IMG/VR virus record: IMGVR_UViG_3300045996_000919
Coordinates: 1 to 33,713 of that record
DNA from: a virus
Strand: one strand, 5' to 3'
Length of the DNA: 33,713 nucleotides
The translations under genes and the position numbers were made by a program. The notes under the pieces are model-generated. The model did not search any database. It had not been told where the DNA came from and saw only the letters and a program-made list of their open reading frames with translations. Below are positions 7,807 to 32,977 of the stretch, one piece after another (the first letter of the stretch is position 1; every line of letters begins with the position of its first letter).

Positions 7807-9684
7807 TTAAACTGTTTCGTATGTTATTACTCCGGCTACTTGTTTTGTTCCAACGGCAGACCATGAGCTACTTGTAAGCATTGTTCCTTGAATGGTCATG
7901 GTTGTACTATTGGCTGTTGTGAATCCGTTTGAAGCTCCCTTAGTCCCGTTGTTATCTACTGCTAAAATTGATACCTGATTTTCACCTACATTATTTGCGG
8001 CCGCGAACGGAAGTGTTATTGTACATGTTGTAGCATTAGATGTACCTGTGAAAAAGACTTGAAGAATACAAATCTTTCCAATCTTCATGTATCTTGAATT
8101 TAAGTAAGTCACCGATCCCGAATATCCGGTCGCCGCCAAAGAGCTGCCATAGTTCGTCCAGGTAAGGGCCATGTCGCCATTAACTATTGAACTAGTGAGT
8201 GCCAATTTCGAATAAGCGATTGCTGCCGAAACTGAAACGTCAGCATTAACAAGAGATCCCGTTAGACTTAGTTTTGAGTAAGCAATAGCGGCAGAAGCCG
8301 AAATATCAGCGTTAACAATCGAACCGCTCAAACTTAATTTTGAATAAGCAATCGATCCGGCCAGCATCGCGTTTGTAACTGATCCTGTGTCTCCGGTAGA
8401 AATTAAGGTGCCAGATACGTTAGGAAGAGTATGTGTTCTGTCTGCTGTTAAACTTGCAAGACTTAAATTAGATTTATAAGCAATAGCAGGAGAAAGAATA
8501 TCAAAACCGTTTCTTGATGAATTGGTTTTAAAATATCCTGTTATAACACTATTCTCCTCAATCTCAAAACCTGCTCCTGTTGCAGATCCTGCAGCCCCGT
8601 TATAATTAAGAGTGATTAATTTATCAAGTACATACTGATTAGCAGCATACTCATAAAGGGCAGTTCCTAAAATATTAACCGTAGCTCCTGATCTTCCTAT
8701 ATTAATTACGTCTGCATTTCCCGTACCAATATTAAGAGTGTCTGTACCTCCTGTTGCGATAACATCTAAGCTTCCAGAATAAAGATCTGTAAACGAACCA
8801 CTACCTACACAATGTAGTTTATAAGTTGGTGAGCTTGTTCCTATACCTACATTAGCGTTATCTCCTAAGACAATAGCGTTGGAGACTGAAACTTGAGCAT
8901 TGTAACCGATTGCTGTAGCATTCGTAAGATTTCCTGAACTTGCATTAGAGCCATATCCCAAGAACGTATTATAATCGCCGGTTGTAATTCCTAAACCAGA
9001 ATTGTGACCAATCGCTACATTTTGAGAACCTGAGATGTTGTTGTATAAGGCTTGCAATCCAATAGAAGTATTATCTGTTCCTATTGTATTACTATACATG
9101 GCCGTATAACCTATTGCTATGTTATGGTCACCTGAAGTATTTGAATTTAGGGCTAATGTACATATCCCTACATTTCCAAATCCTGAAGTGTTATTAATCA
9201 ACGTTGCTACACCTATCCCGACATTATCATATCCTGTAGTGTTGTTGATTAATGAAGAAACTCCAACGGCAGTATTGTTGTATCCTGTCGTGGTGTTTTT
9301 TAAAGCTTCGCTTCCAATACCTGTATTCTGAACGCCAGTGGGGTTTAATAAAGCACTAAGTCCGGCAGCAAAGTTATCAGTAGAATTAGGCAAATGAATG
9401 AGTTTAGAACCGCCATATTCAATACGGTCCCCGCTTGAAATATTTATGTTCTTTCCTGAAGTAGTATTACCAGCAGTTAAGACTTGGTTTAAAGTGCCAT
9501 TAGTTGAAATAATGAAATAAGCTAAGTCATTCCATGCTGTTACTCCGTCACCTACTTTAAACTGAGTATAAACACCAGCATTAGATTCAAATCCTATTTG
9601 TCCTGATAATAATACTGGATTGTTGTCGGTCCAATTTGCGGCCGTGTCCCTTTTGTGTTGAACGCTTGCTGTTATTATACTCAT
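7807..9684 (-). CDS. Tail fibre / receptor-binding protein with YadA-like repeats
   Basis: A 625-residue protein. The N-terminus (VQHKRDTAANWTDNNPVLLSG ... FKVGDGVTAWNDLAY, about 8-57) resembles the N-terminal domain of phage Mtd-like and related fibres and probably attaches to the baseplate. Residues 115-251 hold eight 17-residue repeats of TTGYDNVGIGVATLINN type, like trimeric YadA-head/left-handed-roll repeats. VGIGTSSPTYKLHCVGSG follows, then 22-residue repeats (IAYSKLSLTGS) and a beta-rich tip. It is likely a trimeric fibre that binds the host surface. No C-terminal self-cleaving chaperone with recognisable catalytic residues was seen. Confidence 0.85.
   Translation of the reverse strand: MSIITASVQHKRDTAANWTDNNPVLLSGQIGFESNAGVYTQFKVGDGVTAWNDLAYFIISTNGTLNQVLTAGNTTSGKNINISSGDRIEYGGSKLIHLPNSTDNFAAGLSALLNPTGVQNTGIGSEALKNTTTGYNNTAVGVSSLINNTTGYDNVGIGVATLINNTSGFGNVGICTLALNSNTSGDHNIAIGYTAMYSNTIGTDNTSIGLQALYNNISGSQNVAIGHNSGLGITTGDYNTFLGYGSNASSGNLTNATAIGYNAQVSVSNAIVLGDNANVGIGTSSPTYKLHCVGSGSFTDLYSGSLDVIATGGTDTLNIGTGNADVINIGRSGATVNILGTALYEYAANQYVLDKLITLNYNGAAGSATGAGFEIEENSVITGYFKTNSSRNGFDILSPAIAYKSNLSLASLTADRTHTLPNVSGTLISTGDTGSVTNAMLAGSIAYSKLSLSGSIVNADISASAAIAYSKLSLTGSLVNADVSVSAAIAYSKLALTSSIVNGDMALTWTNYGSSLAATGYSGSVTYLNSRYMKIGKICILQVFFTGTSNATTCTITLPFAAANNVGENQVSILAVDNNGTKGASNGFTTANSTTMTIQGTMLTSSSWSAVGTKQVAGVITYETV
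8168..8392 (-). repeat. 22-residue repeats near the fibre tip
   Basis: About three units containing IAYSKLSLTGS(I/L)VNADxS lie in tandem and are recognisable at DNA level (for instance GAATAAGCAAT and GAGTAAGCAAT blocks). They probably form a coiled or beta-helical shaft between fibre domains. Confidence 0.6.
8932..9342 (-). repeat. Eight 17-residue (51-bp) repeats in the tail fibre gene
   Basis: Residues 115-251 of the fibre consist of eight 17-aa units of the form TTGYxNxxIGxxxLxNN, with a conserved Gly/Asn pair. DNA copies are degenerate, so the repeat is ancient rather than a fresh tandem expansion. Confidence 0.75.
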
Positions 9685-9821: not shown

Positions 9822-10192
9822 GTTAGTGAGCTAGAGTTAGCAGTAGTTGTTAAAGTGTCAATCTCAGAATACCCGCCAAGATTTTGACGGGAAGAAATAA
9901 ATTCCGATCCTGCAACCAATCTTATTCTAACCTCCGCATAAAGTTTACCGGCCGGAGCCGATTTAGTGAGTTCTCTGTTAAGTACTATATCAATTTTACC
10001 GGCAGCCGAATTGTAGACTGTGATCGCATAAGGTCCGGTATTAGTGTTTTTATACGTCTTTAAAAGCTCTTTTTCTCCCTTGTTTTCACGATATATATAT
10101 ACCTCATAAGCGTTAAGGGCAGCGATAACATACGGACTTCCCGCAGAATCATTTAACGTTAACCTTACCTTTATATCACTATTCTGAATCAT
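9818..10192 (-). CDS. Beta-rich baseplate/fibre-associated protein, 124 aa
   Basis: The sequence begins MIQNSDIKVRLTLND and is rich in alternating hydrophobic strands (YEVYIYRENKGEKELL, KLYAEVRIRLVAG). This suggests an immunoglobulin-like or BppU-N-like beta-sandwich used to attach fibres to baseplates. It is coupled by ATGA overlaps to the genes on both sides. The fold assignment is tentative and based on strand pattern only. Confidence 0.5.
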   Translation of the reverse strand: MIQNSDIKVRLTLNDSAGSPYVIAALNAYEVYIYRENKGEKELLKTYKNTNTGPYAITVYNSAAGKIDIVLNRELTKSAPAGKLYAEVRIRLVAGSEFISSRQNLGGYSEIDTLTTTANSSSLT

Positions 10193-10851
10193 TGTACAGT
10201 ATATGTGTAGTAAAGAGTGATATTAGAATTTCCCGCAGAAGGATCGCCGGTCGCTACCTTAGCTCTTAGTGCCGCATTTTCAACCAAAGTGATATCATTT
10301 GTCACGGCTGCTATTTTATTTTTTGATGCTGCGCCAAGTAAAAAGTCAGTTAAAGAAAACACAACTCCTCCTCCCGCAATTTCTACCTGTAAAGTTCCGT
10401 TAACTGTATATTCTACAGAGTTAAAAGTCATAACAGCCCTAAAAGAATTAGGAACGATAGTCTTACTGGCAATAGCGGAAACCAAAGTAACTGGAGTAGC
10501 GTTTAAAGTAAGAACTGCGGCCGTTTCTATTGTAGTGGTTCCTGAATAAGCTACGTAGCCTTTAAAATCCCAATCTGAAGCGGAGAAAGATCCTGTAACA
10601 GCAGGATCAGTATTAGCCTTATACCACTTGTAATCATAAATCACATAAGCACCTGAATAATATTGAACAGTAGCATCCCATTCCCTCACAACGCCTCCTA
10701 AAAGATTAGTGTCTGAAATTTTATTTAATGCACTGTCATTAAGATTGACTAACTCGTTTCTTAAATCTTCAGGCGTAATATCCCCAGAAGTGTTATCCGG
10801 AAGGTTAGCCGCTATACTTGCTGCGTTATCTGCTCTTGATTGTTCTGCCAT
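10189..10851 (-). CDS. Tail fibre-type protein with a carbohydrate-binding-like module
   Basis: A 220-residue protein. Residues 1-50 are helical and polar (DITPEDLRNELVNLNDSALNKI), like the baseplate-proximal part of many fibres. Residues 58-94 hold a CBM5/12-like module: W58 DATVQYYSGAYVIYDYKWY with a closing SDW at 92-94. The rest is Thr/Val-rich beta structure ending ITLYYTYTVQ. The module is also found in the proteins at 22837-23517 and 27274-28251. Role in glycan binding is inferred from the aromatic pattern. Confidence 0.6.
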   Translation of the reverse strand: MAEQSRADNAASIAANLPDNTSGDITPEDLRNELVNLNDSALNKISDTNLLGGVVREWDATVQYYSGAYVIYDYKWYKANTDPAVTGSFSASDWDFKGYVAYSGTTTIETAAVLTLNATPVTLVSAIASKTIVPNSFRAVMTFNSVEYTVNGTLQVEIAGGGVVFSLTDFLLGAASKNKIAAVTNDITLVENAALRAKVATGDPSAGNSNITLYYTYTVQ

Positions 10852-22836: not shown

Positions 22837-23517
22837 TTAGTATGTGACTATGTTGTATAATGCTCCGGCAGAGTTGTACCTATCTGCAATTTCCTTTACC
22901 ATGTTTTCCCGATTTGTAGCTGTTGATCCTAATGAGGTGTAAAGCGCCAAAGGAACGTTAATAGTAAAAGCGTATTGATTAAGTGAATAAGAAGTACCTA
23001 AAAATTGCTTTTGATTGGTATTGGTTCCAAGCTCTCCAAGGTCCGTAACCCCATCAACTCCCAGGTAAAATCCATTTATATCTATTGTATTTCGTGTGAT
23101 ATAAATTGTAGGGAGGGTAGTAGCTGTGGTGTTTAAATAAAGATTAAGAACGTATTCAAATAACATCTTTTGGTTATTGAATTTTACTCTCGAATCAGCC
23201 CCTACGAAATCATTGCATATTAATAACCAGGTGTCCTCATTTTCAAACGGCACGACACCAGTGCTTCCTTCTAAGGCTTCGTAAATCTTAATCCCGTATC
23301 TTACTTTATCTCCGGTTGTGTAAGTGACTCCGCTATTCCATTTCGCTACAGTTAAATACCCCTTTTTAAAGCTTTTGGTATTGGCAAACGTATCATTGAA
23401 CTTCCTTTGTATAGGATAAGTCAAGGTGTATAACCAAGCTAACCGGATTGGCTTTCTGAGTAACGGAGGCGTTAACTGATCTACTATTATTTTATTATCA
23501 AATAAGTAAATTGACAT
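22837..23517 (-). CDS. Tail/baseplate protein with carbohydrate-binding-like module
   Basis: A 226-residue protein in the position of gpI-like tail proteins (after J). The N-terminus PLLRKPIRLAWLYTLTYPIQ fits the helical baseplate contact of that group. At 60-97 it carries W NSGVTYTTGDKVRYGIKIYE ... DTWLLI, the same module as in the 10189 and 27274 proteins. The C-terminal half (TRNTIDINGFYLGVDGVTD) is beta-rich. Function as a fibre anchor is inference. Confidence 0.55.
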   Translation of the reverse strand: MSIYLFDNKIIVDQLTPPLLRKPIRLAWLYTLTYPIQRKFNDTFANTKSFKKGYLTVAKWNSGVTYTTGDKVRYGIKIYEALEGSTGVVPFENEDTWLLICNDFVGADSRVKFNNQKMLFEYVLNLYLNTTATTLPTIYITRNTIDINGFYLGVDGVTDLGELGTNTNQKQFLGTSYSLNQYAFTINVPLALYTSLGSTATNRENMVKEIADRYNSAGALYNIVTY

Positions 23518-24868: not shown

Positions 24869-25275
24869 CTTTGAGCGAACTGTATTCGCCTATCGAGTTT
24901 GAATAAAATTTTCTTGTTCAACTTCCTGCTGTTTCCTACAAATTGACGTTTAGGCATCCCTTTCAATCCTTCGTTGTGTCTGTTTGCATAAGCTAACGGA
25001 GAAATGATGAACACCGATAATTTGCCAGCTTTCCTTTTTAAGAGTGATCGCCTTAAAGCGCCAGACTTAACCAGGATAGCCCTGCCAGAATCCCGCTTTC
25101 TTTCTCTTTTTCTTCCTTTCCAATGCTCTACCCCGTTATCATCAAAGCCCTGCTTTGTAAAATTTCTGGTATAGAAATTAACCGCCTCAACGCCTGCTAT
25201 ATCAGAGAAGTTGTTGATCTCCTTTTCAGCCCTTTTTATAAAGTCCTCTATTTTCTTCGCCTCGTTAAATCTCAC
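24865..25275 (-). CDS. Virion morphogenesis protein (Mu gpG-like)
   Basis: Starts at GTG (25273-25275), overlapping the upstream stop as GTGA. The 136-residue protein has the family's motif set: IAGVEAVNFYTRNFTKQGF, WKGRKRERKR, ILVKSGALRRSLL, and SPLAYANRHNEGLKGMPKRQF. The pattern 'L-x-x-S-G-x-L-R-R-S' then 'Y-A-x-x-H-x-x-G' is typical of phage virion morphogenesis proteins such as Mu gpG. It acts in head assembly or head-tail joining. Confidence 0.8.
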   Translation of the reverse strand: MRFNEAKKIEDFIKRAEKEINNFSDIAGVEAVNFYTRNFTKQGFDDNGVEHWKGRKRERKRDSGRAILVKSGALRRSLLKRKAGKLSVFIISPLAYANRHNEGLKGMPKRQFVGNSRKLNKKILFKLDRRIQFAQR

Positions 25276-26081
25276 GGTATCGGTAAATTGAAGTTGTTTC
25301 TTGCAAGCATTTTATCCTTCGGTTCTACTTTAAAATATGGGTGCTTAGGACTAAATACTATCCTGTCTTTACCTGGATTCATCATAAAAATGTCCGGTAC
25401 GTCTTTAGGCTGTTTGAATCCCTTCAGATTTGTTTTTTCTACCCCATCATCTCCTTGTAAAACCGTACACCTACAATTCCATCCATTGGGAGGCATATAG
25501 TTATTCCAAAACTTATCGTCTACTGGCCTTGAAATGTTATTAAGCGCTGCATGAGTGGGCCTCACCCTTCCATCTCCAACCGTGTGATAAGTAAGCATAG
25601 GATATAACTCGCTATTCTTTTCAAATTCCATCCATTGAGAAGCGGATCTGCTTTGTGCAATAGCCGAATTATACTCAGCCTGTAAATACTCTTCGTTATA
25701 CCGTACTAAAACATCTTTGGCTTTCTTTTTAAAGTCTGAAAAGCTTCGGATTTCATTCTTTTCTCGGTAAACTAAAAGATCAACCACTTCCCTAACTTCC
25801 TGATAGGTCTTAGCGCCACTAAACACATAAACGTTTCTTCGTAAATCAAAGAGCATTTTATAATCTGCGGATCCGAATTGAACTTCATTTATGTCCTTTC
25901 CAAATCCTAAAGACACACCTTCCGAGAGCTTACGGGCTATCAGTTGGTATGTATTAAAGTCAAGTTTTTGCGTTGTTATAACCCCTGCCGCAATCCCTTG
26001 TATTAATCTTTCATAATCCTCTTCAGTAAAAACATTCAGAGGTTCCTTATACTTATTTTCAACATCACAATACCCACACAT
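25272..26081 (-). CDS. Mu F-like head morphogenesis protein
   Basis: A 269-residue protein with the SPP1 gp7/Mu F-type core at about 160-215: TVGDGRVRPTHAALNN, then PVDDKFWNNYMPPNGWNCRCTV. The 'V-R-x-x-H ... W-x-x-x-x-P-P-N-G-W-N-C-R-C' pattern is diagnostic. It is a minor head protein that binds the portal in this family. N-terminal MCGYC could bind metal with the CRC residues or be chance. It overlaps the portal gene by one base and the Mu G-like gene by four. Confidence 0.88.
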   Translation of the reverse strand: MCGYCDVENKYKEPLNVFTEEDYERLIQGIAAGVITTQKLDFNTYQLIARKLSEGVSLGFGKDINEVQFGSADYKMLFDLRRNVYVFSGAKTYQEVREVVDLLVYREKNEIRSFSDFKKKAKDVLVRYNEEYLQAEYNSAIAQSRSASQWMEFEKNSELYPMLTYHTVGDGRVRPTHAALNNISRPVDDKFWNNYMPPNGWNCRCTVLQGDDGVEKTNLKGFKQPKDVPDIFMMNPGKDRIVFSPKHPYFKVEPKDKMLARNNFNLPIP

Positions 26082-27274
26082 TATTTATAGTATAATTCGA
26101 GTGCGTTCTTCACCTGTTCAATTCCTTCTTTTTGCTGCTCAACAACCGGTATAACTTCCGATCCATACCTTTCTAAGATGTATTCAGGAGACATTGTAAA
26201 CTTTCCGGTCTTAATCAATTCAATATCGATTTTACTGTGATCGAGGATAGTTAACTTATCAGCCTCTTCAGCTACTATCCGGTCATTCTCATCAAGTAGG
26301 CCGTGTTTAGCAAGGAAAGGGATAAGCTGGTAGTTATTCACTCCTTCTATAAAGTATTCGTCTGATTCTCCGACTGCATTTAATACTCGCTCCTGCACCT
26401 CAGCAGATCCCACATAAGATTTTTCGTCAATAGTTCCGGTTTGGTTAAGGATGAGTTTAGCGATCTCGGAGTTTACCCGATTAATCATTGCATCAAAGAC
26501 GTTGTAAGCGTCCTGTTTAGCTGATTCCAAAAACTCCACGATATCTTCAGTGTCAAAAACCGCCCAAGGTGAAACACCCCAATCATTCATCATGCTTTCA
26601 GCGTTCTTTCTGGTTCTCTCGTCCCTTACATTAGTTTTTACATATCTGAAAGGTGTTCCGAATTTGTCCTGGTATTCTGCCCATGCTCCAAAAGCTGAAG
26701 TCTTCCAAATAATTAGAGGAGCCGCTTTAAGCAGTAATCCTAAATCCTTTGGTTTTCCTACACCTATTAACCAATCTTCGTAACCATCGGATAAATAACT
26801 TTGTCCTTCGGTATCTCCCCACGACTTTACTACTATGGCTTTTTCAGGCTTTACAAACTGACGAGGGACCAATTCAACGCCTTTAAACTCGTCTCTTACA
26901 AGCTCATCGAACTGAATTAACGAATGTCCCCAATAAATTGAATCTAAAGCCAGATCGAGAAAATCCCTAAACCATTTCTTCCGGATGATTTTTGTTTTTT
27001 CTTCATTTACCTTCCCATCCAAACTGACTACGTTGAACTTCTTGGATAGTGTTAAATTCTTTCTTTGTTGAATTACTGCAGACAAATGATTGTCATTAAC
27101 AGTATTGATATAAATTTGATATAGTGTGTATCGCTGAGGGTTTAGATAGTTCTCAGCAGCTACAACTGCGCTTTTATAATTGCTTAAATCATTCCTTTGC
27201 CTGTATATTTGAACGGGCATTGGGACGTACTTAATAATCTCCTCCGGTTTATTTGTCTTTTGTTTCTTTGCCAT
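26081..27274 (-). CDS. Portal protein (DUF935, Mu gp29-like)
   Basis: I chose the ATG at 27274 (397 aa), which overlaps the preceding stop. A TTG two codons upstream is not needed. Features of DUF935: HLSAVIQQRKNLTLSKKF (65-82), DLALDSIYWGHSLIQFDEL, VPRQFVKPEKAIVV, a FGTPFRYVKTNVRDERTRKN segment with AWAVFDTEDIVEFL-like middle, and INRVNSEIAKLILNQTGTI. The dodecameric portal is the DNA gate and head-tail joint. It lies between the gp36-like connector and the F protein, as in Mu-like heads. Confidence 0.85.
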   Translation of the reverse strand: MAKKQKTNKPEEIIKYVPMPVQIYRQRNDLSNYKSAVVAAENYLNPQRYTLYQIYINTVNDNHLSAVIQQRKNLTLSKKFNVVSLDGKVNEEKTKIIRKKWFRDFLDLALDSIYWGHSLIQFDELVRDEFKGVELVPRQFVKPEKAIVVKSWGDTEGQSYLSDGYEDWLIGVGKPKDLGLLLKAAPLIIWKTSAFGAWAEYQDKFGTPFRYVKTNVRDERTRKNAESMMNDWGVSPWAVFDTEDIVEFLESAKQDAYNVFDAMINRVNSEIAKLILNQTGTIDEKSYVGSAEVQERVLNAVGESDEYFIEGVNNYQLIPFLAKHGLLDENDRIVAEEADKLTILDHSKIDIELIKTGKFTMSPEYILERYGSEVIPVVEQQKEGIEQVKNALELYYK

Positions 27275-28251
27275 TACCAAAGTTGATTGTCTTGAGATTT
27301 ACGGGAATTACCATATGAAATAGATAGTCCCTGAATTGGTAATATCTCAGGAAGACTAGCATTGTCCTTTCCGGATGCTACTCTTTTTAGCCAGCCAATA
27401 GCGCCTCCAAGTTCTTGAGGGCTGTTACCATTGTAAGCTTCTTTTATAAGATCCGACACATTACGAGCCGGTATTGATCTTTCAAAATGATACCTGGTTA
27501 TATCCAGTAAGTACCGAACGATTAATGGATTTCTGTTATCTCCTTTAGTCCAATAAGGACGAGTTGCCGAAGCTGTGAAATAAGTTGCGTTAGTAGGGAG
27601 GTTGCCGGTTGAGTTTAAGATGCATGTGTACATCACATCTTCATAAACCACTTTTACACCTACTGTATAAGCTACTTCAGGATGGAAAAATATATCCGGA
27701 TTCTTACCCGTTATAGAATAGCTTGTGCCTGATCCCCAAATTCCCGAATCTGAATCAGGTGTAATATTAGTATTGGCTATTACACAGGTATAAGTTTTGT
27801 CTAAATACCAAACCTGATCTCCTACGGCATAATCAGTTTCATTGTCCCATTCATCAACCGGAAGAGTAACGTAATAAAGACTAAGGTTATCTGTAATGTA
27901 AATCCAGTAGGTAACATTAGTTGGTACAAACCCTTGAGAGGTTAGGATGCATTGATAAATCTTATCATCATAAACTACTCGGTTTCCAACAGAATAAGAA
28001 GTTGCTTCGCTCCAATCATCTTCTGTGTATTCAACAAGCTTCTTTCCTTTATATACAAGGGTGGTATCAAATACTGTAGTATTAGTAAATATTTGGTCAA
28101 TGATGTAGCGCTGTGAAAGCTTGCTAATCATTTCTTCCTGACCCACTTGTTCAGCGTTCAGCCATTCAGCATAATTATCTTCGATCAACTCTCTTAATGC
28201 ATCAGAAAGTGTGACTCTTAGATAATCTTTATCCCTTAATAGCCTTGCCAT
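27274..28251 (-). CDS. gp36/DUF1320-like connector with three inserted carbohydrate-binding-like modules
   Basis: A 325-residue protein. Residues 1-60 (MARLLRDKDYLRVTLSDALR ... ISKLSQRYIIDQIF) and 240-300 (NPLIVRYLLDITRYHFERS, NVSDLIKEAYN ... AIGWLKRV) together match the small Mu gp36-like (DUF1320) connector that normally is about 140 aa. In between, at about 80-116, 135-172 and 190-225, are three modules of W(x5)YxxGxxVxYxxxxY type (WSEATSYSVGNRVVYDDKIY; WDNETDYAVGDQVWYLDKTY; the third lacks the first Trp). It lies between terminase and portal, and has its own upstream candidate promoter. Confidence 0.7.
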   Translation of the reverse strand: MARLLRDKDYLRVTLSDALRELIEDNYAEWLNAEQVGQEEMISKLSQRYIIDQIFTNTTVFDTTLVYKGKKLVEYTEDDWSEATSYSVGNRVVYDDKIYQCILTSQGFVPTNVTYWIYITDNLSLYYVTLPVDEWDNETDYAVGDQVWYLDKTYTCVIANTNITPDSDSGIWGSGTSYSITGKNPDIFFHPEVAYTVGVKVVYEDVMYTCILNSTGNLPTNATYFTASATRPYWTKGDNRNPLIVRYLLDITRYHFERSIPARNVSDLIKEAYNGNSPQELGGAIGWLKRVASGKDNASLPEILPIQGLSISYGNSRKSQDNQLW

Positions 28252-28303: not shown

Positions 28304-29710
28304 CTAAAGGCGTTTGCTACTTGACTGTTGGTTGTGTCCGAATTGTCGCTTGTATGAATCAGAATCACCATGCTGGAATTTATGGTACTCGGACTGAAAA
28401 GCTGAACACATTAAATAATCTGTGAGATCAGTAATATGTCCAAACTTCTGGTAAGATATTCCGGTTCGTTCGTCTCGATCAAGTTTCTTGTCCTTTCTTC
28501 CGTCCGAAGCTTCTTTGGTTTGTTCAAAATCCATAATTGCCTCATGTAAATCTTTGTGTATACTAAAGTGTATTCCCTCGTATCTCGATTCCAGTACCCT
28601 ATTAAAGAACTGGCCTCTCATAACTACTGAAGGATTTGATGAAGAAACTCTAAGTAGTGGATTGAACTGCGAAAGTTCGTTTTCTATAATCCTAAAAAAA
28701 TTGTGTCCCTTTTCAAGTTTAACATCTTCCTTTTTACTTGTAGCGTCACCATAAATAAACAACCCTGCTTTGTGATGAATGTACTTTAAGGCAAATTCCC
28801 TACAAACTGATTTAATAGTATTGTTTGGTGTACGGCCTAGTATAAGATCGATCATATGGACCGTTTTTCCGACTATCTGAAACACGCCACATGGCAAATA
28901 AGGATGTACGTTCTCATCCCAGCTAATATGCAAGGCTAGGTTAGGGTTATAAAGATGTGTTCCGGTGTGTTTTTTACTGTCGAACTTCTTATAAAACTCG
29001 CCTCCTGTTTTCGGCACAGCGTCCCAATCGCCAAACAATAAACGGGCCTTATCGTATTCGTTCATCTTAGAAAGTGATTCCTTGTACAGCTTCAAAAACC
29101 CCTCATCAGGATTATCTTCTACCGTTGCTCTGATATACTTTTGATAAGGCTTTAGCTTAATGTACTCTCCACCTGGTTCTTTGATGTACTTTTTCTTTAT
29201 CCAGTTTATATTCGGGTTACAGGTTAAAAGGATTTTAGGGACTAGTCCGTAATCCGATAGCATCCAGCGAATACGGGAATTAATAATATCGAAAGCCTTT
29301 TCTGTAATCTCGCCAGCCTCGTCAATAAAAGCGTCTGTAAATTCGGTTGATCCTAAACTTTCAAAATTGGGATCCGAAGGCTCTTGCTTTAGTTCTTTAA
29401 ATACGGTACGTGACCCATTCGCCCAATTAATAACCATGTCCTGAGCATTAAACTTAAAATCTATTCCGGAACGATAGCCCATTAATTGAGCTACTTTAAG
29501 ATAAGTGATAAGGGTTGATTCCTTTATTGACTTAAGTTCCTTTCTTCCAATAAAACCTCGGGATCCGGCATAAGTTACCCGTTGCCTTATGTGCCAAAGA
29601 CAACCTAAATAAGACTTCCCGCCCCCTGCAGCTCCTCCGTATAATATTTCAGTAGTGGTAGTATCGGTTAGGTAATGCCAGGCAAGACTTTGCTTCTTAC
29701 TCAGCTTCAT
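28304..29710 (-). CDS. Terminase large subunit
   Basis: A 468-residue packaging ATPase/nuclease. Walker A GGAAGGGKSY is at 25-34, and Walker B with catalytic Glu is at 125-133 (TDAFIDEAGEI). The nuclease half has acidic residues in LHISWDENVHPYLPCGVFQIVG, GLFIYGDATSKKEDV, and HITDLTDYLMC near the C-terminus. It overlaps the small-subunit gene by 14 bp. It cuts and pumps DNA through the portal. Family-level packaging type (cos versus headful) cannot be fixed from the sequence. Confidence 0.93.
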   Translation of the reverse strand: MKLSKKQSLAWHYLTDTTTTEILYGGAAGGGKSYLGCLWHIRQRVTYAGSRGFIGRKELKSIKESTLITYLKVAQLMGYRSGIDFKFNAQDMVINWANGSRTVFKELKQEPSDPNFESLGSTEFTDAFIDEAGEITEKAFDIINSRIRWMLSDYGLVPKILLTCNPNINWIKKKYIKEPGGEYIKLKPYQKYIRATVEDNPDEGFLKLYKESLSKMNEYDKARLLFGDWDAVPKTGGEFYKKFDSKKHTGTHLYNPNLALHISWDENVHPYLPCGVFQIVGKTVHMIDLILGRTPNNTIKSVCREFALKYIHHKAGLFIYGDATSKKEDVKLEKGHNFFRIIENELSQFNPLLRVSSSNPSVVMRGQFFNRVLESRYEGIHFSIHKDLHEAIMDFEQTKEASDGRKDKKLDRDERTGISYQKFGHITDLTDYLMCSAFQSEYHKFQHGDSDSYKRQFGHNQQSSSKRL

Positions 29711-30079: not shown

Positions 30080-31264
30080 CTAATTGAAGAAAGGATGTTC
30101 TGAGGCTTTCAGAGCGTTTTGTAGTTTGTCAATCCTGAGATACTTTTCAAGTACAGTAATGCTTTTCCAGCCTCCCATTAACTGTAGGGACTTCAAATCT
30201 ACATTACCATGCTTTACCATGCTTAAATAGTAATTGGTAGCCATTGATCTTCTGGCTGTGTGAGTAGTGATAAAGTTGTACTTCTTAGCAGTTATCTTTT
30301 TAACCTTGCCCTTTTCTATTTTAGTAATCGTTACCAAGCTTTCGATACCGGCCTCCTTTCCGATTTCCTTTAACTTCCAATTACTCTCTTGATTTGTGGT
30401 AGGGGGTAGCTTGTACTTATACTTTTCCAATATCTCAACGGATCTTTTAAATAGCGGAATTGTGGCGCTGTTCTTTGTTTTCTCATGGACCACTGTTGCA
30501 AAGTAAGTATTGTCTTTTTTACTGATATCTCTTTTCTCTAGGTTGATTGAGTCCCCAAACCTTAAGAATAAGTTATAGCTTAAGAAAAACCGATTACGTT
30601 CTGCCTCGAGATGTTCGGGGAGTTCTGCATCCATGATAAGATTAATTTCTCTTTCTGTTAAGGCGATAGCGTCCGACTCCTGATAAGAGGCTGTGAAGTT
30701 TACGTACTGATTGTTTGAATGGTACTTACTTCCTTTCTTCATTATAACCTTTAGAACCTTTATGGCTTTGGCTATCGTGTTCTCTCCGTACTTGGTCCTT
30801 AAGAAAATTACATAATCATCGTAAAACTTTTCGTTAATGTCCTTCCAGTTTAGTTTAGGATCAAAGTCACTCAAGTATTTAGTGTATGTGAAGTAACTCT
30901 TAATTGTATTGGGCGAGAAGGATTGGCCTTTATTCAAAACCTTTCCGGACTTTATATCTTGACAGTACTGATTGATGAATCCAAACAAACTCAATTCACC
31001 TTTATCTTCCCGTAATTCACTAACTGTTATATTTCTTTTGCTTAACCAGGTAGATTCAAGTTCCGATATTTTAATGTTCAACTCCGCATTAATCCGGTCA
31101 GCGTTCGGCCTTCCCTTTTTTACTTTCCCCTTGTCCCAATCTTCCTTCCTGACATAATACTCAGTAGGTATAAGATCCTTCTTCCCATGATTATAAATGT
31201 ATATCTTTACCTGCCTTGTGCCGTCTGTCTTTTCATGGTGTCCGAGTATAGGCTTAATAATCAT
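30080..31264 (-). CDS. int: Tyrosine integrase
   Basis: A 394-residue site-specific recombinase. The N-terminal arm-binding part (TRQVKIYIYNHGKKDLIPTE ... VRKEDWDKGKVKK) is typical of Bacteroidota integrases; a SAM-like core-binding domain spans about 92-185; catalytic residues are R235 in LFLRFGDSI, K262 in HEKTKNS, H335 and R338 in THTARRS, W366 in place of the usual His, and nucleophile Y375 in LEKYLRI. Trp at the penultimate position is tolerated in this family. It would catalyse attP x attB recombination. The 246 bp upstream contain direct repeats suited to arm sites. Confidence 0.93.
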   Translation of the reverse strand: MIIKPILGHHEKTDGTRQVKIYIYNHGKKDLIPTEYYVRKEDWDKGKVKKGRPNADRINAELNIKISELESTWLSKRNITVSELREDKGELSLFGFINQYCQDIKSGKVLNKGQSFSPNTIKSYFTYTKYLSDFDPKLNWKDINEKFYDDYVIFLRTKYGENTIAKAIKVLKVIMKKGSKYHSNNQYVNFTASYQESDAIALTEREINLIMDAELPEHLEAERNRFFLSYNLFLRFGDSINLEKRDISKKDNTYFATVVHEKTKNSATIPLFKRSVEILEKYKYKLPPTTNQESNWKLKEIGKEAGIESLVTITKIEKGKVKKITAKKYNFITTHTARRSMATNYYLSMVKHGNVDLKSLQLMGGWKSITVLEKYLRIDKLQNALKASEHPFFN

Positions 31265-32341: not shown

Positions 32342-32977
32342 TTAATAATGGGAATCTCTTACGGGACCGTGAGCTTTGTATAAGGTTTGGATGTCGTTTT
32401 TATGAATGTCGATATCATCGTAATCTTTAGTATTATAACTGCGAAGGATTAAATGGTTGCTGTCTTTTCCCTTTCGTATAATTTTGACAAATCTATTACC
32501 GCCTTTGGTTACAATGCCATAAGGATGTCCGAAGTCGATGTGCGACATATCCTGTTGCGGCTCTAATCCTATCACATCACCCGCAGTAAACATTGGAAAC
32601 ATCGAATTTCCTTTTACAGTTACAAAAGCAATACAATTTCTAAAACCAGCCATATAGATATAACCAATGACCTTTTCTGGGAAGTCTTTGAAGTGCGTAA
32701 CATCGCCGGCCGCAAAATCAACATCATAAACCGGGACACCCTTTTGGATTACCGCTATGTTGCTTTCCGCTAATGGGCCTTTTTCAAATATATCTGGGCT
32801 TACATTTGTAAACTCGCAGAATTTGGTAATAATGTGATCCGGCACATCAGGTCGACCAAACCACTTATACAGGGTTGTTCGGCTAATCTCCATACCCTCG
32901 GCTATCTCTACGAGACTGTGTTCTTTGTTGTTTATAACCAAGAACTCTAAAATTTTTCCTTTATGAACGTCAGGCAT
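32342..32977 (-). CDS. CI-type repressor with S24 self-cleavage domain
   Basis: A 211-residue protein. An N-terminal helix-turn-helix at about 21-40 (SLVEIAEGMEISRTTLYKWF) binds DNA; the C-terminal LexA/S24 domain has the Ala90-Gly91 cleavage site (VDFAAGDVT), catalytic Ser125 (KGNSMFPMF) and Lys165 (RFVKIIRKG). DNA damage would trigger RecA-aided autocleavage and induction. It faces the operator region at 32978-33076, from which it should repress the rightward early operon. The gene start ATG is at 32975-32977. Confidence 0.9.
   Translation of the reverse strand: MPDVHKGKILEFLVINNKEHSLVEIAEGMEISRTTLYKWFGRPDVPDHIITKFCEFTNVSPDIFEKGPLAESNIAVIQKGVPVYDVDFAAGDVTHFKDFPEKVIGYIYMAGFRNCIAFVTVKGNSMFPMFTAGDVIGLEPQQDMSHIDFGHPYGIVTKGGNRFVKIIRKGKDSNHLILRSYNTKDYDDIDIHKNDIQTLYKAHGPVRDSHY

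Follow-up and report, generated by a model that had tools for sequence, protein, structure and literature searches.

A Mu gp36-type head-tail adaptor with nested CBM5/12-type modules, possibly a modular glycan-binding collar, in a contractile-tailed phage of the Bacteroidota host group

Decoration of the phage neck is usually pictured as a matter of separate whisker or fiber proteins. The head-tail adaptor itself, represented by gp36 of phage Mu, is a dodecamer that sits between the portal and the tail terminator and joins the portal clip through its C-arm (PMC11915804). The adaptor of phage R4C bears a peripheral accessory domain that is connected immediately ahead of the first of two tube-domain helices and rests against the capsid; the authors of that study noted contacts between this Ig-like attachment domain and the major capsid proteins and considered it stabilizing, with a role in adsorption being unlikely (PMC10276861). 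The phage 812 adaptor carries a beta-sandwich on the outer neck surface that contacts the capsid and lines the channel with a beta-hairpin (PMC12886913), and a channel-lining hairpin is also found in the TP901-1 adaptor (PMC10747895). Accessory domains on adaptors and carbohydrate-binding modules (CBMs) on neck fibers are both already known, and the adaptor described below is less unusual as a decorated neck protein than its initial annotation had suggested.

The window analyzed here is a 33.7-kb (33,713 nt) virus record with its phage genes on the minus strand. Pfam searches revealed the gene order TerL (terminase large subunit, positions 28304 to 29710; Terminase_3, E = 3.2e-12), adaptor (P0001, 325 aa, 27274 to 28251), Mu-type portal protein (26081 to 27280; Portal_Mu, E = 5e-61), Mu F-like head morphogenesis protein (25272 to 26081; Phage_Mu_F, E = 4.9e-15), and a Phage_tail_S-type neck/tail-completion protein, with the sheath, baseplate hub, and major head protein encoded elsewhere in the window. 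The position of the adaptor gene between TerL and the Mu-type portal is equivalent to that in related phages. The window phage is contractile-tailed, has Mu-type head genes, and is a phage of Bacteroidota. Inspection by eye also showed, alongside the Mu-type head genes, a tyrosine-integrase-like gene (30080 to 31264, minus strand) and a LexA/CI-like repressor gene (32342 to 32977, minus strand), which suggest an integrating rather than transposing lifestyle, in contrast to those of fF4 and Peternella.

On the basis of profile comparisons, gene order, and models, the 325-aa protein is well supported as a head-tail adaptor of the Mu gp36/DUF1320 type. A profile of 24 insert-bearing sequences aligns with a profile of 67 no-insert gp36 proteins at 99.8% probability (hhalign, E = 2.5e-30), the large gap falling at the insert. 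The PF07030 domain is recognized in all 67 members of the no-insert family and in 22 of the 24 insert-bearing ones (best E = 1.2e-7). In Pfam searches the window protein itself has no PF07030 match at E ≤ 1, whether its insert is kept or removed, so its gp36 membership derives from its kin and from profiles. The no-insert family matches Mu gp36 (E = 4.1e-9) and the PDB chains 9khx and 5ydn by profile, and the only probability-1.00 PDB matches of its core model are Mu gp36 (9knu, 9khx, 5ydn) and the JBD30 adaptor 8rka (TM 0.57 to 0.62). The model of the window adaptor (pLDDT 76, pTM 0.70) has helices in the N-terminal half of the core (residues 1 to 56, 28084 to 28251), which hhalign assigns to the no-insert family; the C-terminal half with the C-arm (residues 237 to 325, 27274 to 27543) is likewise aligned by hhalign and matches the head-tail adaptor family phrog_195 (E = 0.0022). 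The whole model resembles a BFVD entry named “Bacteriophage Mu, Gp36” and a similar protein (TM 0.68 to 0.71; 0.68 over length for the former). The connector identity proposed in the initial annotation has held up. By inference from Mu, the adaptor would form a 12-fold ring between the portal and the tail.

Alignment to no-insert orthologues places an insertion at about residues 57 to 236, with nearly all of the length difference falling between the conserved RYD..IF and GD.RN motifs. An insertion splitting the connector is therefore real, and at ~180 residues it is slightly larger than the ~170 first claimed. Two copies of the pattern W(x5)YxxGxxVxYxxxxY, starting at residues 80 and 135, are exact, whereas in the one at residue 189 Phe takes the place of Trp; not one of 20,000 composition shuffles contains even a single match. 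The Pfam CBM_5_12 domain is found in three stretches of the window adaptor, modules A to C (E = 3.2e-13; 49.9 bits against a cut-off of 26.2), and in all 24 insert-bearing members of the alignment. The module fold superimposes on the chitin-binding domain of chitinase C (2d49) with an rmsd of 1.1 over 47 columns; module C is poorly modeled (pLDDT < 50). The CBM5/12 (chitin-binding-type) fold of the inner modules is thus well supported, in agreement with their first description as carbohydrate-binding-like. The count of three W-motif modules needs amendment in that only two match the motif exactly and a fourth, divergent module surrounds them.

This outer module begins with two strands (residues 57 to 78, 28018 to 28083; conserved F61, Y67, L72, and Y75) and is interrupted in its beta-hairpin by module A (residues 79 to 122, 27886 to 28017; 61.0 bits with the inner-module HMM). 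Its third strand (residues 123 to 132, 27856 to 27885) is followed by module B (residues 133 to 175, 27727 to 27855; 51.6 bits), a continuation (residues 176 to 187, 27691 to 27726), module C near its end (residues 188 to 227, 27571 to 27690; 49.1 bits), for which the only counterpart among the surveyed loci is in L210, and the terminal piece (residues 228 to 236, 27544 to 27570).

The same nesting is seen in the close kin of the window, where the outer pieces enclose an inner A and, after the third outer strand, an inner B. Joined in order, the outer pieces of these kin match the inner-module profile over its full length (profile-profile probability 90%, E = 1.5e-6), and those of the two-module kin do so at 92.8% (E = 3.8e-7); wrong joining orders score lower, and none of 50 column shuffles exceeds 7%. 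With an HMM built solely from inner modules of other phages, the two-module sequences of L054, L056, and L082 with the inner module removed score 13.6 to 21.9 bits, as high as none of 200 shuffles, while L061 fails. The spliced outers of the long family are weak in this test, and that of the window does not outscore shuffles; it therefore counts as a fourth module by descent, through its kin. From the profiles of the kin, the outer module can be assigned to the same CBM5/12 fold family.

Natural variants tell the same story. The ~46-aa insert class consists of one module standing alone. In the two-module class, a complete inner module sits within the beta-hairpin of such a module, whose N- and C-terminal parts lie on either side of it. 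In 16 pairs of single- and two-module inserts, including lotta8-2 versus FPSV-S1, the best alignment is obtained when the excision is internal, and in about half of them it falls at the outer hairpin itself; when the excision was left unconstrained, the strength of the inner modules confounded the scan. Within the three-module clade, L043 and L045 keep B, lack A, and have a continuous outer hairpin, and in most comparisons with them the match is better after excision of A than of B; one nested module has apparently been lost here. The agreement of the profile-profile test with these variants settles the nesting. The tandem arrangement read from the motifs at first was rejected, as the outer pieces fit the module profile best once the inner modules are excised and the remainder is joined in order. 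Most likely, insertion of the outer module came first, and its loops later received the other modules.

How widespread these states are was gauged in 160 portal loci, 80 from viral and 80 from genome contigs, a survey biased toward the kin of the window because the loci are the best matches to a portal alignment. The alignment was needed, as neither the window adaptor nor the window portal gave a match when searched as a single sequence against viral contigs. In these loci, insert lengths change stepwise, from near 0 (most gut Bacteroidales) through ~45 to 53, ~89 to 103, and ~134 to 146 to 181 to 184 residues (the window and L210), and the natural states are none, outer, outer+A, outer+B, outer+A+B, and outer+A+B+C. 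Loci with the same number of modules tend to group on the portal tree, along which the number changes about 12 times. Among annotated relatives, the orthologues from fF4, p00, and Peternella_1 have no insert (139 to 141 aa; the last annotated as DUF1320/adaptor), and those from lotta8-2 (190 aa, PF07030) and FPSV-S1 (228 aa, DUF1320) bear one. In 395 genomes drawn from one phylum, the adaptors are nearly all of the no-insert length. An assembly artifact or chance chimera was rejected, since the architecture recurs in L210 and dozens of other contigs. With relatives carrying from none to four modules, the insertion loop gives the impression of an exchangeable collar encircling the neck of the virus. 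As a separate observation, the major capsid protein of the no-insert Bacteroides phage p00 (L008) is annotated in GenBank with a BACON domain, another carbohydrate-associated fold on the virion surface.

Other sequences also occupy this loop. Three loci (L070, L091, and L168, the last from Hymenobacter) have Pro/Ala-rich inserts of 70 to 83 residues instead of clear modules, and the adaptor at L063:641-1615 has a 192-residue insert in which the outer-plus-A arrangement precedes an additional domain of another kind. Such tolerance of unrelated inserts at one site is what would be expected if duplication and recombination simply added modules to a permissive loop, as a mosaic selfish expansion with little function. 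This explanation appears improbable given the signs of constraint on the insert. Between close relatives, omega is 0.07 to 0.38 in the insert and 0.03 to 0.11 in the core (one pair has no amino-acid change), and the invariant residues of the insert are largely aromatic, including Y67, Y86, Y99, W116, Y141, Y154, W172, P219, and W234. The terminal Trp residues of A, B, and the outer module (W116, W172, and W234) are invariant in all 24 sequences. At the same time, mean identity is 46% in the insert against 58% in the core, and 268 of 276 pairs show the lower value in the insert. Purifying selection acts on the insert, which nevertheless evolves faster than the core.

The module is not confined to the adaptor. 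A 226-aa protein (22837 to 23517, minus strand) encoded next to the J-like baseplate wedge has a single CBM5/12-type module within its N-terminal half (about residues 49 to 104), as do its homologues in about 20 related loci, including L015, L017, L023, L026, L030, L033, L037, L043, L050, L072, and L085. A module-like stretch, WDATVQYYSGAYVIYDYKWYKA, was also seen by eye in a tail-region protein (10189 to 10851, minus strand), with no match by Pfam or the inner-module HMM.

The insertion point, just before the penultimate long helix, is equivalent to the entry at the first R4C tube-domain helix, and the channel-lining hairpin is the next loop. By analogy with the R4C and 812 adaptors, the insert therefore most likely lies on the outside, near the head. 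The hairpins of TP901-1 and 812 raise the alternative of a DNA gate, with the insert projecting into the channel or into the stopper/terminator interface. We regard this as very improbable: the channel hairpin lies between the last two helices and not in the insertion loop, and a channel of about 28 to 30 Å is too small for 12 × 180 residues. Placement in the channel was rejected on these grounds of topology and size.

The reading we favor, at roughly even probability, is that the CBM5/12 modules on the gp36-type adaptor form a 12-fold collar for weak, multivalent adhesion to glycans. Twelve adaptor copies would make up the ring linking portal and tail in this contractile-tailed phage, and the adaptor loop before the penultimate helix would have become a docking site for modules of the CBM5/12 fold. 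With four modules per adaptor, a 12-fold ring would bring the total to 48 on each virion. Facing outward beneath the head, they may adhere weakly and multivalently to host capsule or envelope glycans or to environmental polysaccharides (chitin, mucus), perhaps aided by the single module of the baseplate-side protein. Glycan binding is assumed here from the fold; a literature search on the chitin-binding Trp of ChiA1 found nothing. Adhesion is best supported because of the CBM5/12 folds, the conserved terminal Trp, the variable copy number, the faster evolution, and the tail-side module. It is weakened by the case of A-1(L), in which a CBM on the neck fiber showed no binding to the host (PMC10966104).

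The main rival, which we consider possible but clearly less probable, is head-neck reinforcement: the peripheral modules would be struts to the capsid or to neighboring subunits, using the CBM fold as a compact, stable block that binds no sugar. The capsid contacts of the Ig-like domain in R4C, whose authors doubt an adsorption role (PMC10276861), and of the beta-sandwich in 812 (PMC12886913) are precedents, and purifying selection fits struts equally well. However, none to four copies among related phages with the same core would be odd for an essential strut, the same type of module recurs in the baseplate-side protein, and the insert diverges faster than the core. A third possibility, that the insert is a device for binding the primary host receptor and acts in infection like a tail fiber, is improbable. 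CBM5/12 modules are common in phage tail fibers (matches to phrog_5073 and phrog_9851, and fiber or baseplate matches in Agrobacterium phage 7-7-1 and Milano); still, the neck sits well away from the tail tip, the insert is absent from many related phages, and the window has a separate fiber-like gene (7807 to 9684) with an Mtd_N domain. The product of this minus-strand gene combines the N-terminal Mtd_N (major tropism determinant) domain with YadA-head-like repeats.

Taken as a whole, the idea of the adaptor ring as a modular glycan-binding collar that arose through recursive insertion of CBM5/12 into CBM5/12 at three sites is tentative, falling somewhat short of even probability. If it holds, a phage could tune the number of binding modules on its neck without adding a fiber gene, as the head-sealing ring itself seems to bear a variable nested set of sugar-binding-type modules. 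The natural variants with none to four modules offer a ready comparative system for what neck decorations do, as well as a clear case of a domain repeatedly inserted into its own kind. Relatives of the window adaptor are already in UniProt, one under the gp36 name, and our literature search, incomplete in coverage, found no description of CBM5/12 modules nested within each other inside an adaptor.

The window adaptor shares its core fold, C-arm position, and portal-adjacent gene with Mu gp36/PF07030 (5ydn, 9khx, 9knu) and the JBD30 gp41 adaptor (8rka), neither of which has a module insertion; its sequence is too diverged for PF07030, which does match its kin. Two proteins of uncultured Caudovirales phages, A0A6J5R4Q7 (“Bacteriophage Mu, Gp36”) and A0A6J5SUR1 (both in BFVD), are near full-length structural matches whose names reflect annotation transfer. 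The DUF1320 proteins of the Winoviridae Flavobacterium phages lotta8-2 and FPSV-S1 share both gene place and insertion loop with the window adaptor and carry one or two divergent modules, uncalled by annotators, compared with four in the window, whereas the fF4 and Peternella_1 orthologues have no modules. Like the proposed arrangement, the R4C Ig-like and 812 outer beta-sandwich adaptors have an accessory beta domain at the neck periphery; however, these domains are of a different fold and single copy, and that of R4C is N-terminal rather than nested in a loop. The neck passage structure (NPS) of TP901-1 and the neck fibers of A-1(L) also display carbohydrate-binding modules around the neck, but as separate neck-attached fiber proteins, whereas here the modules are inside the adaptor chain. 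Finally, the modules share their fold and the W..Y..G..V.Y....Y signature with the chitin-binding domains of ChiA1 (1ed7) and ChiC (2d49) and, unlike those domains, have no enzyme partner and are nested in one another.
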